Part shown: piece after piece, positions 28,690 to 56,851 of the stretch
How positions within the stretch are numbered: position 1 is the stretch's first letter
How the letters are laid out: every line of letters starts with the position of its first letter
Assembly: GCA_012735315.1 (NCBI GenBank)
Contig: JAAYHS010000116.1
Location: 1-64,000, forward strand
From: Bacillota bacterium
Lineage (GTDB): Bacteria > Bacillota > UBA4882 > UBA8346
Direction: 5' to 3'
DNA length: 64,000 nt
Notes under the pieces: model-generated
Seen by the model: only the letters and a program-made list of their open reading frames with translations
Databases searched by the model: none
Told to the model about the DNA's origin: nothing
Made by a program: the position numbers and the translations under genes

Positions 28690-28918
28690 TAATAATGACA
28701 ATGACCGAAAGGAGTAAGCTTTTCGATGGTGGAAGAGAGGGGCCGGGCGGTGCGAGGCCCTACCTGAAAAAGCCGAAGGTCGTTCGGGAGTCGCCGGGGT
28801 GAACTTGAGTAGCTCCGGCCGGGTAAGCCCGTTATCGCGTTGGAGCGCCCTGGTGGGTAATTAGGTGGTACCGCGGAAGTAAGACTTTCGTCCTTTTGAC
28901 GATGGTCTTTTTTTTTAA
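28690..28918 (+). ncRNA. T-box leader (Val)
   Basis: A tRNA-sensing attenuator. The invariant T-box core GGTGGTACCGCGG is at about 28864-28876, followed by the terminator hairpin AAGAC..GTCTT with a long T-run ending at about 28917. Upstream are the AGTA element, a GGTG terminal loop and the CCCGTTATC stem III region. GTC at 28779-28781 sits where the specifier codon is expected, which would read tRNA-Val and agrees with the downstream gene. Uncharged tRNA-Val should switch on valS. Confidence 0.9.
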
Positions 28919-29043: not shown

Positions 29044-31740
29044 TTGAGTCTACCAAAAGTATATGATCCGCGAGCAGTTGAAGAGAAATGGTATCAATTT
29101 TGGCTTAAACAAAACTATTTTCATGCCGAAACGGAGGGTGAAGGAGAACCTTTTTGCATCGTCATCCCCCCTCCGAACGTAACCGGAGTGCTTCACTTGG
29201 GACATGCCTTGGACAATACCCTTCAAGATATCCTGATTCGGTGGCGCCGGATGCAAGGTTATAATACTTTGTGGGTGCCGGGAACCGATCACGCCGGGAT
29301 CGCCACCCAGGCTAAGGTGGAGGAGTCGCTAGCCAAAGAAGGGTTGAACAAACATGATTTGGGGCGCGAAAAATTCTTAGAACGGGTCTGGGCTTGGAAA
29401 GAACAGTATGGCGGGACTATCATCAATCAACTTAAGCGGCTGGGCGCTTCCTGCGACTGGGAGCGGGAGCGGTTTACCATGGACGAAGGTTGTTCGGCGG
29501 CGGTCCGGGAAGTTTTTATCCGTCTTTATGAAAAAGGGCTGATTTACCGCGGCAGTTATCTGATTAACTGGTGCCCCAAATGCCAGACTACTATTTCCGA
29601 TATTGAGGTCGAACATGAAGAGCGTGACAGCTTTCTCTGGCATATTCGCTACCCCTTGGCCGACGGTTCCGGATACTTGAAAGTGGCCACCACCAGGCCG
29701 GAGACGATGTTGGGGGATACCGCGGTGGCGGTTAACCCGGAAGATAACCGTTACCAATCTTTAATCGGCAAGGAATTAATTTTGCCGGTGATGAACCGGA
29801 GAATACCGATCATCGCCGATCCGTACGTAGACATGGACTTTGGGACCGGAGCGGTTAAGGTGACCCCGGCCCACGATATTAATGACTTTGAGATGGGCCT
29901 CAGACACAATCTGCCGCAAATCACGGTAATCGGCTTTGACGCCAAGATGACCAAGGAAGCCGGTAAATATGCCGGGTTGGACCGGTACGAATGCCGGGAA
30001 CGTTTAGTGGAAGAGTTGAAGCAAGAGGGTTATTTGGTTGAGGTTGAACCATACCGGCATGCCGTCGGTCAGTGCTATCGTTGCGACTCCGTTATCGAAC
30101 CCTTGATCTCCAAACAATGGTTCGTCAAAATGAAACCCTTAGCCGAACCGGCGATCCAAGCCGCGCTCGACGGCAAGATTACTTTCATACCGGAGCGCTT
30201 CACCAAGATTTATCTGGGATGGCTCGAAAACATCAAAGACTGGTGTATATCACGGCAGTTATGGTGGGGACACCGGATTCCGGTATGGTATTGCCGGGAC
30301 TGTAACGAGACGATCGCCGCCCGGCGCGATCCCGATCAATGTCCGAAATGTAAGAGCAGCCGCCTTGAACAAGACCCGGATGTTTTGGATACCTGGTTCT
30401 CATCGGCGCTCTGGCCGTTTTCCACCCTTGGCTGGCCGGAACAAACCACGGAACTGAAGAAGTATTATCCAACTTCGGTTTTGGTCACCGGCCGGGACAT
30501 TATCTTTTTCTGGGTGGCGCGGATGATCTTTATGGGATTGGAGTTTATGAAGGAGGAACCCTTCAAAGATGTTTTGATTCACGGTCTGGTTTTGGACAAA
30601 TACGGCAAAAAAATGAGTAAATCAAGGCCGGAAACGATTGTCGATCCCCAAGACGTAATCGATAATTATGGCGCGGATACGCTGCGGTTCACTTTAGCTA
30701 CCGGCACCGCCCTTGGTCAGGACCAACGGTTCCAAATGGAAAAAGTGGAAGGCAGCCGGAATTTTACCAATAAAATTTGGAATGCGGCCCGTTTCGTCTT
30801 AATGCACGAAGAAGCGAATCAGGCGGGCGACTTAATCGACAATTTACAGGCTTCGTTGGTGCAATCCTTCATGTTGGGCGAAACCGACGCGCTGCCTCAC
30901 GAATGGTTGTCTCTCCCGGAACGGTGGATATTAACCCGTTTACAAAAGGTTACCGCTGAAATCACCAGATTGCTGGAACAATATGATATTGGCGCCGCCG
31001 CTTCCTTAATCTATGAGTTTTTATGGAATGAATACTGCGATTGGTATATCGAGCTATCCAAACCCCGGCTTTATCAAAAGGAAAATGTTTTGGAGCGTCG
31101 CGTCGCTTTGGCGGTGTTAACCAGGGTCTTACGGCAGACCATGGAATTATTGCACCCCTTCATGCCGTTTCTCAGCGAGGAGATTTGGCAAGCCTTGCCT
31201 CACATTGGTGAGAGTATTATGATCGCCGAATGGCCGGCGGCCTCGGAAAAATTGCAGTTTGAAAAGGTTGAGGCCGAGATGGGCATGGTGATTGAAGTAG
31301 TCCGCGCCATTAGGAATGTCAGGTCGGAGGCTAATGTTCCGCCGGGGAAAAAGATCACGGCTATTTTCAGCTGCGCCGCCGAGAAACAGGAAATATTAGA
31401 GCGGAATCTTGAACATCTCACTAATCTGGCCGGTTTGGAAAATCCTCAATTTATTGCCGAAAATGAACCCAAACCTGAAAAAGCGGTAGGCGCGGTTGCC
31501 GGAGGAGTTACTATCTTTGTGCCGCTCGCCGGTTTGGCGGATCCGGTTAAAGAGAAAGAGCGGCTCATGAAAGAATTGAATCAGTTGGAGGCGGAGATTA
31601 ACAAGTTGGAGGCGAGGATTACAAATCCGGCGTTTTCTCAAAAAGCGCCTCCGGAGGTCGTCGCCAAGGAAAAAGCCAAACTGGAAAGGTTTAAAGAAAA
31701 AGCCGCTAAAATCGAAGAACGTTTGCGTGATTTGGTCTAG
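29044..31740 (+). CDS. valS: Valyl-tRNA synthetase
   Basis: Class I synthetase charging tRNA-Val. HIGH motif is [13 protein letters not shown] (about 39-51), KMSKS motif is KYGKKMSKS (about 519-527); an editing domain with [17 protein letters not shown] lies between, and the C-terminal coiled-coil arm (about 830-898) is present. Length 898 is usual for Bacillota. TTG start at 29044 is preceded by AAGGAGG. Expression is controlled by the T-box. Confidence 0.97.
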
Positions 31741-42916: not shown

Positions 42917-42945
42917 TTGACAACGGATTGCGGCAGGAATATAGT
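42917..42945 (+). promoter_or_regulatory. Promoter of corA leader
   Basis: TTGACA (42917-42922), 17-bp spacer, TATAGT (42940-42945). Transcription would begin near 42952, leaving a leader of about 220 nt before corA. Confidence 0.75.
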
Positions 42946-42951
42946 GAAATA

Positions 42952-43172
42952 AGAAGTAAAATTTAAATATCAAAAGGCAGGTGAAGACAATGGACGGAGA
43001 CTCTAGCAATTGGCGACTTATTGTAAAAATTAATCGGCAACGGGTTCCATTGTCGAAAGCCGCCGTTCTAAGACGCCGCTCTCTTTTTCTCTGAAATGCC
43101 GTCGGCGCTTCTTCCAATGGAACTCGAATTAGCAATCATACCTTCAATCATACCTTGGAAGGAGTCGGTCGC
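42952..43172 (+). ncRNA. Candidate switching leader RNA of corA
   Basis: The segment 43044-43054 (GTTCCATTGTC) can pair in two mutually exclusive ways: TCCATTGTC with GACAATGGA upstream (42986-42994, 9 bp) or GTTCCATTG with CAATGGAAC downstream (43115-43123, 9 bp). A further stem joins AAGACGCCG to CGGCGCTTCTT (about 43070-43112). This is the logic of a riboswitch ahead of a metal transporter. I did not find the complete M-box consensus, so the class is open. Confidence 0.5.
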
Positions 43173-44159
43173 ATGCTTCAAGCTTATCTTACCGTAAACC
43201 ATGAACTAACCGCCGTTGAAAACTTAGCCGAAAAAGGGATTTGGATTAACCTGATTAATCCCACGGAAGCTGAGTTAACGAAAGTCGCCGCTTCGGCCGG
43301 GATAAATCTCGACCTGTTACGGGCGGCCCTTGACGCAGAGGAACGTTCCCGAATTGAGGTTGAGGACTGTCAACTCCTGATCTTAATTAATGTTCCAATT
43401 TCCGAGGGAGAAAACGGCGCTCTTTTTTACGATACCATACCGCTGGGGATGATTGTCAGCGAGCATTCGTTTGTTACCGTATGTTTAAAGGAAAATCCGA
43501 TCATCACCGAGTTTGAGTACGGCAAAAACCGTTCCTTGTATACCTTTAAAAAAACCCGCTTCGTTTTACAGATGCTGTTTAAAACCGCCACTTATTTTTT
43601 GCGTTACCTGCAACAGATCGATAAAAAATCAAGTGAAATTGAAAGCAAATTGCATGTTTCCATGAAGAATGAGGAATTAATCAAACTTTTAAACCTTCAA
43701 AAAAGTTTGGTTTACTTTACCACCTCGCTGCGGGCCAACGAAATCGTGATGGAAAAACTATTGCGGTTACAACTGAAGTCGCCGTTGACCAATGTCGATC
43801 CGGATACGGCATTGACCACGCAAATCTTGAAAATGTACCCCGAGGACGAGGAACTACTGGAAGACGTAATTACCGAGAACAAACAGGCGATTGAGATGTG
43901 TCAAACTTATAGCGATATTTTGACCGGCACCATGGATGCTTTTGCCTCGATCATTTCCAATAATTTAAATATTGTGATGAAATTCTTGACTTCGGTGACG
44001 ATTGTGATGGCCCTTCCGACCATGGTCGCCAGTTTTTACGGGATGAATGTCGCCTTGCCGTTTCAGAATTCACCGTTCGCGTTTATGTTTACCATTATTA
44101 TTTCCTTGGTATTGGCGCTAATCGGCGTGGTGTTGCTGCGGAGGAAGAATATGTTTTGA
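43173..44159 (+). CDS. CorA family Mg2+/divalent cation transporter
   Basis: A 328-residue CorA-like channel protein: cytoplasmic N-terminal domain, long stalk helix (about 150-270), two membrane helices near the C-terminus and the selectivity motif YGMN between them (ASFYGMNVALPF). It would import Mg2+ or a related ion. ATG 43173 is chosen: GGAAGGA lies at about 43157-43163, while the TTG at 43155 overlaps it. Confidence 0.9.
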   Translation: MLQAYLTVNHELTAVENLAEKGIWINLINPTEAELTKVAASAGINLDLLRAALDAEERSRIEVEDCQLLILINVPISEGENGALFYDTIPLGMIVSEHSFVTVCLKENPIITEFEYGKNRSLYTFKKTRFVLQMLFKTATYFLRYLQQIDKKSSEIESKLHVSMKNEELIKLLNLQKSLVYFTTSLRANEIVMEKLLRLQLKSPLTNVDPDTALTTQILKMYPEDEELLEDVITENKQAIEMCQTYSDILTGTMDAFASIISNNLNIVMKFLTSVTIVMALPTMVASFYGMNVALPFQNSPFAFMFTIIISLVLALIGVVLLRRKNMF

Positions 44160-44297
44160 ACGCAGATGACGCGGATATCGCAGATGACGCAGATATCGCA
44201 GATGACGCAGAGAACGCAGATTACGCAGATGATGCGGATATCGCAGATGACGCAGAGAACGCAGATGACGCAGATGACGCGGATATCGCCGATGACG
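44160..44297. repeat. 9-bp tandem repeat, second array
   Basis: Directly after the corA stop, GCAGATGAC-type 9-mers (with GCAGATATC, GCGGATATC, GCAGAGAAC variants) run for about 138 bp. They belong to the same family as 17513-17618. Both arrays sit immediately behind a gene's stop codon. Confidence 0.85.
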
Positions 44298-44465
44298 CTG
44301 ATGTTGTTGGCCATAGTGCTTAACAGTCGGATCATGATCGGATTCGGCTGTTTTGTTTTGCTCCGTTTTCCGGAGAGACATTTTTTTGATTGGCTTTGGT
44401 TGGTGAAGCGGGGGCGTGAAAGCCGCCTCACCCTCAAATCATGGGTGGCTATAGATTTAACACGT

Positions 44466-44604
44466 GTCCCCTCTCCCCGAAGGAAAGTTTATTCCGACTG
44501 TTGTGAGAGGGGACAATTGTTGATAATGCTTTTCGAACATCTCGTACTCGTGCTCGTGCTCGTGCTCAGCGAAGCGGTACTCGTAATCGTCTTTTCTGAA
44601 CATA
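44466..44604 (-). repeat. Composite repeat element, copy B
   Basis: On the minus strand: GAAAAGACGATTACGAG, CCGCTTCGCTGAGCACGAGC with extra CACGAG words, an AAAGCAT spacer, then a CCCCTCTC hairpin (GTCCCCTCTC 44466-44475 with GAGAGGGGAC 44505-44514). It matches copy A (19396-19507) part for part. The rest of 44298-44750 holds no convincing gene. Confidence 0.75.
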
Positions 44605-55411: not shown

Positions 55412-55485
55412 TTAAAACGTGCGATTAACCGTTATCATATTTAAATAGATTGCCAAGCGGTAAAAAACTAAATAATTGATTTCAT

Positions 55486-55595
55486 ACTCATCAAGAGAGG
55501 TGGAGGGAAAGGGCCCGATGAAACCCGGCAACCCGAGAATTTGGTTAATAATTCGTTGGGTGCCAATTCCCCCAGAGGGTTCTGGAAGATGAGAC
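55486..55595 (+). ncRNA. SAM-I (S-box) riboswitch
   Basis: Conserved parts in order: CTCATCAAGAGAGGTGGAGGGA (P1 and junction), GGCCCGATGAAACCCGGCAACC, a variable P3, GGTGCCAATTCC and the closing GGAAGATGAGA. This is the classical SAM-binding aptamer; bound SAM should favour the terminator at 55610 and reduce metK. Confidence 0.95.
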
Positions 55596-55669: not shown

Positions 55670-56851
55670 GTGACCAGTCGCGCATTGTTCAGCTCGGAAT
55701 CAGTAACTGAAGGACATCCGGATAAAATTTGCGATCAGATTTCCGATGCCATTTTGGACTCTATTTTGACCGAAGACCCTAAAGCTCGGGTGGCATGCGA
55801 AACCGCGGCCACGACCGGTCTGGTTCTGGTTATGGGCGAGATTACCACCGATTGTTATGTTGATATTCCCAAAGTGGTCCGGGAAACGATTCGCGAAATT
55901 GGTTATACCAGGGCTAAATATGGATTCGATTGCGACACCTGCGCCGTAATCACCTCAATCGACGAACAATCGCCAGATATTGCCCTCGGAGTTAACCAGG
56001 CTCTTGAAGCCAAAACCGGCGCTATGAGCGAAGCGGAAATTGAAGCGATCGGCGCGGGCGACCAGGGTATGGTTTTCGGTTTTGCCTGCGATGAGACTCC
56101 CGAATATATGCCGATGCCGATTAGTTTGGCCCATAAATTAACCAGGCGCCTTGCCGAGGTTCGTAAAAAGGATATTTTGCCTTATTTGCGGCCGGACGGC
56201 AAGAGCCAGGTGACTGTTGAATATGAGGACGGAATACCGAAGCGGATCGATACGGTCGTTATCTCCTCCCAACATGACACCGTGGTTGAACACGACCAAA
56301 TCGAACGGGACATTATTGAAAAAGTAATTAAAGAAGTAATTCCCAGCCAATTTTTGGATTCAAAAACCAAGTATTTGGTCAATCCGACCGGCCGGTTTGT
56401 GATTGGCGGCCCGCAGGGCGATTCCGGCTTGACCGGCCGTAAAATAATCGTCGATACTTATGGAGGCATGGCCAGACACGGCGGCGGGGCTTTTTCCGGA
56501 AAAGATCCGACCAAAGTCGATCGTTCGGCGGCTTATGCCGCCCGTTACGCGGCCAAAAACGTAGTCGCCGCCGGGTTGGCTAAACGTTGCGAAATTCAAA
56601 TCGCTTATGCGATCGGTGTAGCCCGGCCGGTTTCGATTCTGGTCGATACTTTTGGGACCGGGATCATCCCCGATACCGAAATTGCCGGCCTGATCGAAAA
56701 AGTTTTTGATTTTCGTCCGGCCGCCATTATCCGGGACTTGAACTTACGAAGACCGATTTATAAACAAGTGGCCGCCTATGGTCATTTTGGCCGGGATGAC
56801 CTTGATTTGCCTTGGGAAAAATTGGACAAGGTTGATTTACTGAAGAAATAA
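55670..56851 (+). CDS. metK: S-adenosylmethionine synthetase
   Basis: Makes SAM from methionine and ATP. 393 residues with [31 protein letters not shown] and [23 protein letters not shown] signatures. GTG start at 55670 follows AAGGAGATGG. Controlled by the SAM riboswitch. Confidence 0.97.

Follow-up and report, generated by a model that had tools for sequence, protein, structure and literature searches.

A putative leader-peptide attenuator for Mg2+ uptake upstream of corA in Bacillota

The leader of the corA gene probably controls Mg2+ uptake by translational attenuation through a leader peptide: a ribosome on a short upstream open reading frame (uORF) would determine whether the Shine-Dalgarno sequence of corA is accessible. 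The uORF starts with acidic codons and overlaps the first of four segments that form mutually exclusive helices, and comparable uORFs precede genes for Mg2+ transporters of other families. An earlier sequence-only reading had taken the leader for a metal-sensing riboswitch. Its identification of a corA leader with exclusive pairing behind a strong promoter stands, and so does, by inference, the connection to Mg2+; the metal-binding aptamer is not supported.

Architecture of the corA leader

Pairing within the leader is organised around one shared arm. The 11-nt segment GTTCCATTGTC (43044-43054) is complementary to GACAATGGA (42986-42994) and to CAATGGAAC (43115-43123), exactly at the positions reported from the sequence. 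The pairing is real: none of 5000 dinucleotide-shuffled versions of the leader contains two perfect 9-nt helices with a common arm. Among 1276 sampled 221-nt stretches of the plus strand, three contain such an arrangement, one of them being the corA leader itself. The downstream helix grows to 12 bp (43041-43052 with 43115-43126). In addition, a third helix that the first reading had missed joins GCUUCUUCCAA (43107-43117) to UUGGAAGGAGU (43155-43165) and masks the corA Shine-Dalgarno sequence. Since this helix overlaps nucleotides of the downstream partner of 43044-43054, the leader comprises four segments: segment 1 pairs with 2 (helix A), 2 with 3 (helix B) and 3 with 4 (helix C). The features are as follows.

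42917-42945, + strand: predicted promoter, TTGACA-17 nt-TATAGT (consensus scan, 11/12 matches)
42976-42983, + strand: uORF Shine-Dalgarno sequence GGCAGGTG, kept in relatives
42986-42994, + strand: segment 1, includes the ATG of the uORF; forms helix A with segment 2
42990-43094, + strand: uORF (leader peptide) MDGDSSNWRLIVKINRQRVPLSKAAVLRRRSLFL, 34 aa, MDGDSSNWRL... (translated sequence)
42993-43010, + strand: conserved codons 2-7 (D-G-D-S-S-N), proposed Mg2+-sensitive ribosome-destabilising stretch (consensus over 52 leaders)
43041-43054, + strand: segment 2, uORF codons 18-22; forms helix A with segment 1 or helix B with segment 3
43107-43126, + strand: segment 3, 3' of the uORF stop; forms helix B with segment 2 or helix C with segment 4
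43155-43165, + strand: segment 4, includes the corA Shine-Dalgarno sequence; forms the sequestor, helix C, with segment 3
43157-43164, + strand: corA Shine-Dalgarno sequence GGAAGGAG (read from the sequence)
43173-44159, + strand: corA, Mg2+ channel, 328 aa from ATG (Pfam PF01544, E 2.9e-53)

This layout, with the target Shine-Dalgarno sequence in segment 4, is that of a classical attenuator. The computed energies of the two folds are nearly equal, as a switch requires: -53.2 kcal/mol for A plus C and -54.7 kcal/mol for B. The total folding energy of the leader is ordinary (z = 0.59 and 0.06), so it is the arrangement and not the stability which stands out. The promoter noted in the first reading is indeed close to consensus, and a scan of the leader for intrinsic terminators found no terminator-like site.

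The uORF, likewise overlooked in the first reading, lies 6 nt behind GGCAGGTG; its ATG at 42990 falls inside segment 1 and its 34 codons end at 43094, 12 nt 5' of segment 3. Together with its Shine-Dalgarno sequence (42976-43094), this short translatable frame overlaps segment 1. In genomes of the same class, GGCAGGTG also stands 5' of ordinary genes, for instance an ORF in L119; it is thus a plain strong ribosome-binding site, which argues that the uORF is translated. For the same reason the conserved motif AAAGGCAGGTGAAGACAATGGA, considered as a block of a new aptamer, was discarded: it turned out to be the Shine-Dalgarno sequence followed by the start codon.

Across 52 leaders, the N-terminal consensus of the uORF is M-[DE]-[GSA]-D-[PGS]-[SG]-[SNR] (position 3 is also given as x), and from codon 8 onward conservation is absent and the remainder of the peptide drifts. 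Acidic codons, and in many leaders a proline codon, are therefore found among the first residues: the corA uORF begins M-D-G-D, and Pro occupies position 5 in 21 of the 52 leaders. Neither Pro at position 5 nor Ser/Gly at position 6 belonged to the requirements of the rule used to search corA leaders. With just two acidic residues and lacking proline, the MDGDSSN start of the corA leader is weaker than MgtL in this respect. Among 51 distinct uORFs, the N-terminal codons are skewed (AGT for 46 of 60 Ser, CCT for 22 of 29 Pro), which suggests a constraint at the level of the codon or the RNA besides that on the peptide.

Two repeats lie downstream. Immediately 3' of the corA stop codon, 44160-44303 holds 16 degenerate copies of the 9-bp repeat ACGCAGATG, also with a 45-bp period, and a short CTCGTG hexamer repeat (4.5 copies) is present at 44541-44567.

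Recurrence in relatives and association with Mg2+ transporter genes

Of the 29 class genomes, 9 have a corA gene, and an acidic-start uORF with a GGCAGGTG-like Shine-Dalgarno sequence precedes it in eight (MDGDSSNW, MESDPSGW, MEADSSNL, MTDEDGYP, MDDGNTSY, MEADGSSW, MDTDGSNS and MEGDPGSS); the sole exception is G013, whose corA leader has no uORF. A broader set drew 129 corA leaders from Bacillota and some further bins. Such a uORF is present in 41 of them, a number which includes apparent same-genome duplicates (L040/L120, L046/L121, L050/L122) and at least two cases which look false (L132, inside an M-box, and L188, an edge artefact); shuffles average 4.4 (at most 9), and the reverse strand has 1. 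The uORFs of corA leaders are 11-41 aa long. Most of the named relatives among the matches listed are Bacillota. A candidate uORF is also present in one cultivated relative, Anaerospora hongkongensis DSM 15969 (L195).

The helices recur as well. The sequence-only reading had named a lack of alternate stems in relatives as grounds for its own rejection, and stems are in fact supported in other corA leaders. As a triple, helices A, B and C exceed every one of 100 shuffles in the corA leader, G001 and G017; in G006 they exceed 99 of 100. Bulged helices or a differing geometry make this ungapped test fail in several leaders, for which reason duplexes were tested with anchored regions. In these tests the regions were set beforehand: A around the uORF start, B between the uORF body and the stretch 3' of the uORF, and C around the corA start. 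For the eight class corA leaders, the combined p values are 5e-4 (A), 7e-10 (B) and 0.003 (C). For 17 more distant leaders they are 3e-9 (A) and 1e-11 (B), and helix C is not significant there (p=0.14). With helix A anchored on the uORF start, its best partner spans the start codon in the class leaders. The arms of this helix covary, for example GACAAUGGA/UCCAUUGUC in the corA leader versus GGACAGUGGAGG/CUUUCACUGUUC in G017. Relatives keep the start of the uORF, and their helices are not copies but are rebuilt out of other sequence. A DNA similarity search with the whole leader returned mostly chance matches beyond the family.

The pattern is not restricted to corA. A search for AGGTG, a spacer and ATG-Asp-x-Asp over 399 Bacillota genomes returned 66 places in 58 genomes. 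Among the 62 places examined there are 35 short ORFs, of which 20 lie directly 5' of CorA, MgtE or an MgtE-domain/NRMT operon; within the class, 9 of 12 pattern places stand directly 5' of such transporter genes. As the pattern was derived from corA leaders, the mgtE cases are the independent ones. In the class, 15 of 21 complete mgtE leaders carry the uORF (MDADSSN, MDTDPYP, MESDLYG, MEPEGES and others). NRMT genes have it in two of six cases and lack it in four. Taken together, mgtE and NRMT leaders of the class contain the uORF in 17 of 27 cases, compared with 1.4 (maximum 4) in shuffles. In ten of these leaders, the helices are supported as well (p=7e-5, 8e-4 and 0.002 for A, B and C). G013 has a uORF 5' of mgtE, though none 5' of corA. 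Neither an acidic uORF in any of the six mgtE leaders of genus g12 (L259, L260, L263, L279, L282, L283) nor an M-box in their genomes is present, so that another control may exist there.

The NRMT assignment in G008, where the uORF starts MEEDSSRL, is based on structure and signature. The best solved relative of this Nramp-family protein is 7qia (EleNRMT, a Mg2+ transporter; E 8e-111), the next Nramp following at 1e-25. Compared with the NRMT signature (PMC8806188), the protein carries DAGG and the NRMT-site Thr, and the transition-metal Met is absent (Thr here; NRMTs have Ala). A possible split transporter was seen at L240 (G072): an M-box and then an acidic uORF (MDPDGSNI) lie upstream of an ORF whose product reads as an MgtE N-terminal/CBS protein, and an NRMT-like gene comes next.

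The downstream genes thus encode Mg2+ transporters (CorA, MgtE, NRMT), and comparison among leaders strongly supports both the attenuator architecture and this Mg2+ link.

The M-box and the riboswitch reading

The sequence-only reading found the M-box signature incomplete and considered a variant or a new class. An Rfam search of the leader strand with E up to 10 returned no family, M-box (RF00380) included, and a single chance-level match lies on the opposite strand. The source genome (G000) also contains no M-box match, and the idea of an M-box variant was rejected. A T-box, a SAM riboswitch and a tRNA were found elsewhere in the window (the whole 64-kb stretch of DNA analysed), and M-box matches in other corA leaders show that the RF00380 test works. 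Two of these elements are ordinary, namely the T-box leader at 28692-28898 (118.8 bits), 5' of an ORF (29044-31740) reading as valyl-tRNA synthetase, and the SAM riboswitch at 55485-55595, 5' of an ORF (55670-56851) reading as S-adenosylmethionine synthetase.

A new class of riboswitch, whose RNA would bind Mg2+ or another metal directly and switch between the helices, could account for a set of mutually exclusive helices whose last one sequesters the Shine-Dalgarno sequence of a metal transporter gene. We hold it to be highly improbable, as what is conserved is a translation start and not an aptamer fold: conservation is confined to the helices and the region of the uORF start (Shine-Dalgarno sequence, start codon, acidic codons), the sequence that follows is unconserved, and no conserved, aptamer-like unpaired nucleotides were seen between the helices.

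M-box riboswitches (ykoK, RF00380) control the same genes (CorA, MgtE, NRMT). The M-box is absent from 26 of 29 class genomes, and two of the four class M-boxes lie on the same strand 1.4-1.5 kb 5' of NRMT copies without a uORF. Elsewhere in the phylum, both elements share one leader: at nine loci (L054, L055, L064, L135, L148, L180, L225, L240, L242) the uORF sits between M-box and transporter gene. Depending on the lineage, the uORF hence takes the place of the M-box or comes after it.

Proposed mechanism, comparison with known systems and significance

We propose that the ribosome itself is the sensor. In the OFF state, helices 1:2 and 3:4 would form, and the corA Shine-Dalgarno sequence would be buried in the latter. 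A ribosome running through segment 2, or a failure to initiate, would leave 3:4 in place and the Shine-Dalgarno sequence closed. If a ribosome were held on, or repeatedly lost from, M-D-G-D-S-S-N, segment 1 would be covered and segment 2 free; helix 2:3 could then form, 3:4 would open and corA would be translated. The N-terminal acidic residues would destabilise the ribosome at low Mg2+, as reported for mgtL and mgtQ. That Mg2+ is the signal for the corA leader is inferred from the start of the peptide and from the genes served; translation of the uORF, destabilisation of the ribosome and control at the step of translation are likewise proposed.

A computation with ribosome footprints is consistent with this scheme for many leaders. 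In these, the opening energy of the target Shine-Dalgarno sequence is lowest with the ribosome at codons 1-5 and returns to the ribosome-free value by about codons 7-9. With the ribosome at codons 1-5, the mean opening gain over 30 leaders is 1.7 kcal/mol versus -0.35 for shuffles (Wilcoxon p=4e-4). For the corA leader itself the gain is modest (1.0 kcal/mol, a value that 3 of 15 shuffles match). Opening shifts the opposite way by more than 1 kcal/mol in 6 of the 30 leaders, both NRMT ones included. A cruder occupancy model with one large late block gave no significant result; in mgtE leaders this block extends over part of segment 3 as well.

The pairing logic has precedents. In erm-type translational attenuators, 1:2 and 3:4 alternate with 2:3, and a ribosome over segment 1 frees the target Shine-Dalgarno sequence; the signal is an antibiotic-stalled ribosome, not Mg2+. 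The corA leader would share this logic, with Mg2+ as the proposed signal. A leader of the mgtL/mgtQ kind is expected to show Mg2+-dependent abortion of its translation, countered by bL31. The likeness to mgtQ-mgtB of Salmonella (PMC8092293) extends to a short uORF with acidic codons near its start (Asp2 and Glu5 in mgtQ), to 1:2 plus 3:4 versus 2:3 with the target Shine-Dalgarno sequence within 3:4, and to a Mg2+ transporter downstream. For mgtQ the attenuation logic was demonstrated by mutation, Asp2 and Glu5 being required (PMC8092293). However, mgtQ is enterobacterial, 8 aa long and located between two genes of an operon, whereas the corA uORF has 34 aa and lies in a 5' leader in Bacillota. 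The Bacillota uORFs have their own consensus, M[DE]xD[PGS][SG]S, and serve CorA, MgtE and NRMT; we claim no sequence relation to mgtQ. By analogy, then, the leader would work like mgtQ, with a consensus, host range and gene set of its own.

In mgtL-mgtA and corL-corA of E. coli and Salmonella (PMC11552253), efficient translation of the leader ORF represses a Mg2+ transporter, as proposed here, and there are alternative folds; acidic and Pro codons of mgtL destabilise translation at low Mg2+ (PMC11552253). These leaders act through Rho, whereas in the Bacillota corA leader, which has no Rfam match, a sequestor covers the Shine-Dalgarno sequence. The pe20 locus of Mycobacterium tuberculosis (PMC12810186) resembles some Bacillota relatives in having an M-box followed by a conserved small ORF, uORF2; its peptide is specific to mycobacteria and is described as a regulated ORF, not a sensor (PMC12810186). 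The corA motif of PMC6429828 is gammaproteobacterial.

Three further readings of the same features were weighed. The uORF and helices could act on transcription, through Rho or an intrinsic terminator, instead of on translation initiation, as the Rho-dependent mgtL and corL do (PMC11552253) and as the weakness of helix C outside the class would allow; since segment 4 is the corA Shine-Dalgarno sequence itself and the leader has no intrinsic terminator, we regard this as unlikely, if worth some weight. Sensing of charged tRNA (Ser, Pro, Asp or Gly) by the leader peptide would fit the frequent Ser and Pro at positions 5-7 and their strong codon skew. It is nonetheless improbable, because no single amino acid forms a run, constancy is highest at the acidic positions 2 and 4, and the genes served are not amino-acid genes but Mg2+ transporters of unrelated families. 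We give hardly any credence to a functional micropeptide that is co-expressed with the transporter and to which pairing would be secondary: a conserved, M-box-linked small protein has been reported in mycobacteria (PMC12810186), but here conservation is limited to the first ~7 residues, and both the length and the remainder of the peptide vary freely.

Ribosome-mediated attenuation in response to Mg2+ is thus the reading we prefer. In the literature searched, where coverage of subscription journals is thin, no description of such a leader in Bacillota was found. It seems fairly likely that these leader peptides (M[DE]xD[PGS][SG][SNR]) constitute a hitherto undescribed family of Mg2+ sensors that spans Bacillota, which serves three unrelated transporter families with rebuilt helices, replaces or follows the M-box and extends the use of the ribosome as a sensor beyond enterobacteria. 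The uORFs would provide a set of natural variants of a ribosome-destabilising sequence which are directly testable, and the present analysis corrects the new-riboswitch reading that such leaders invite. Genes for Mg2+ transporters could be located simply by this peptide start, which recurs 5' of CorA, MgtE and NRMT either by itself or downstream of an M-box. If the proposal is true, Mg2+ sensing through the stability of the ribosome at an acidic nascent N-terminus would be no enterobacterial peculiarity.
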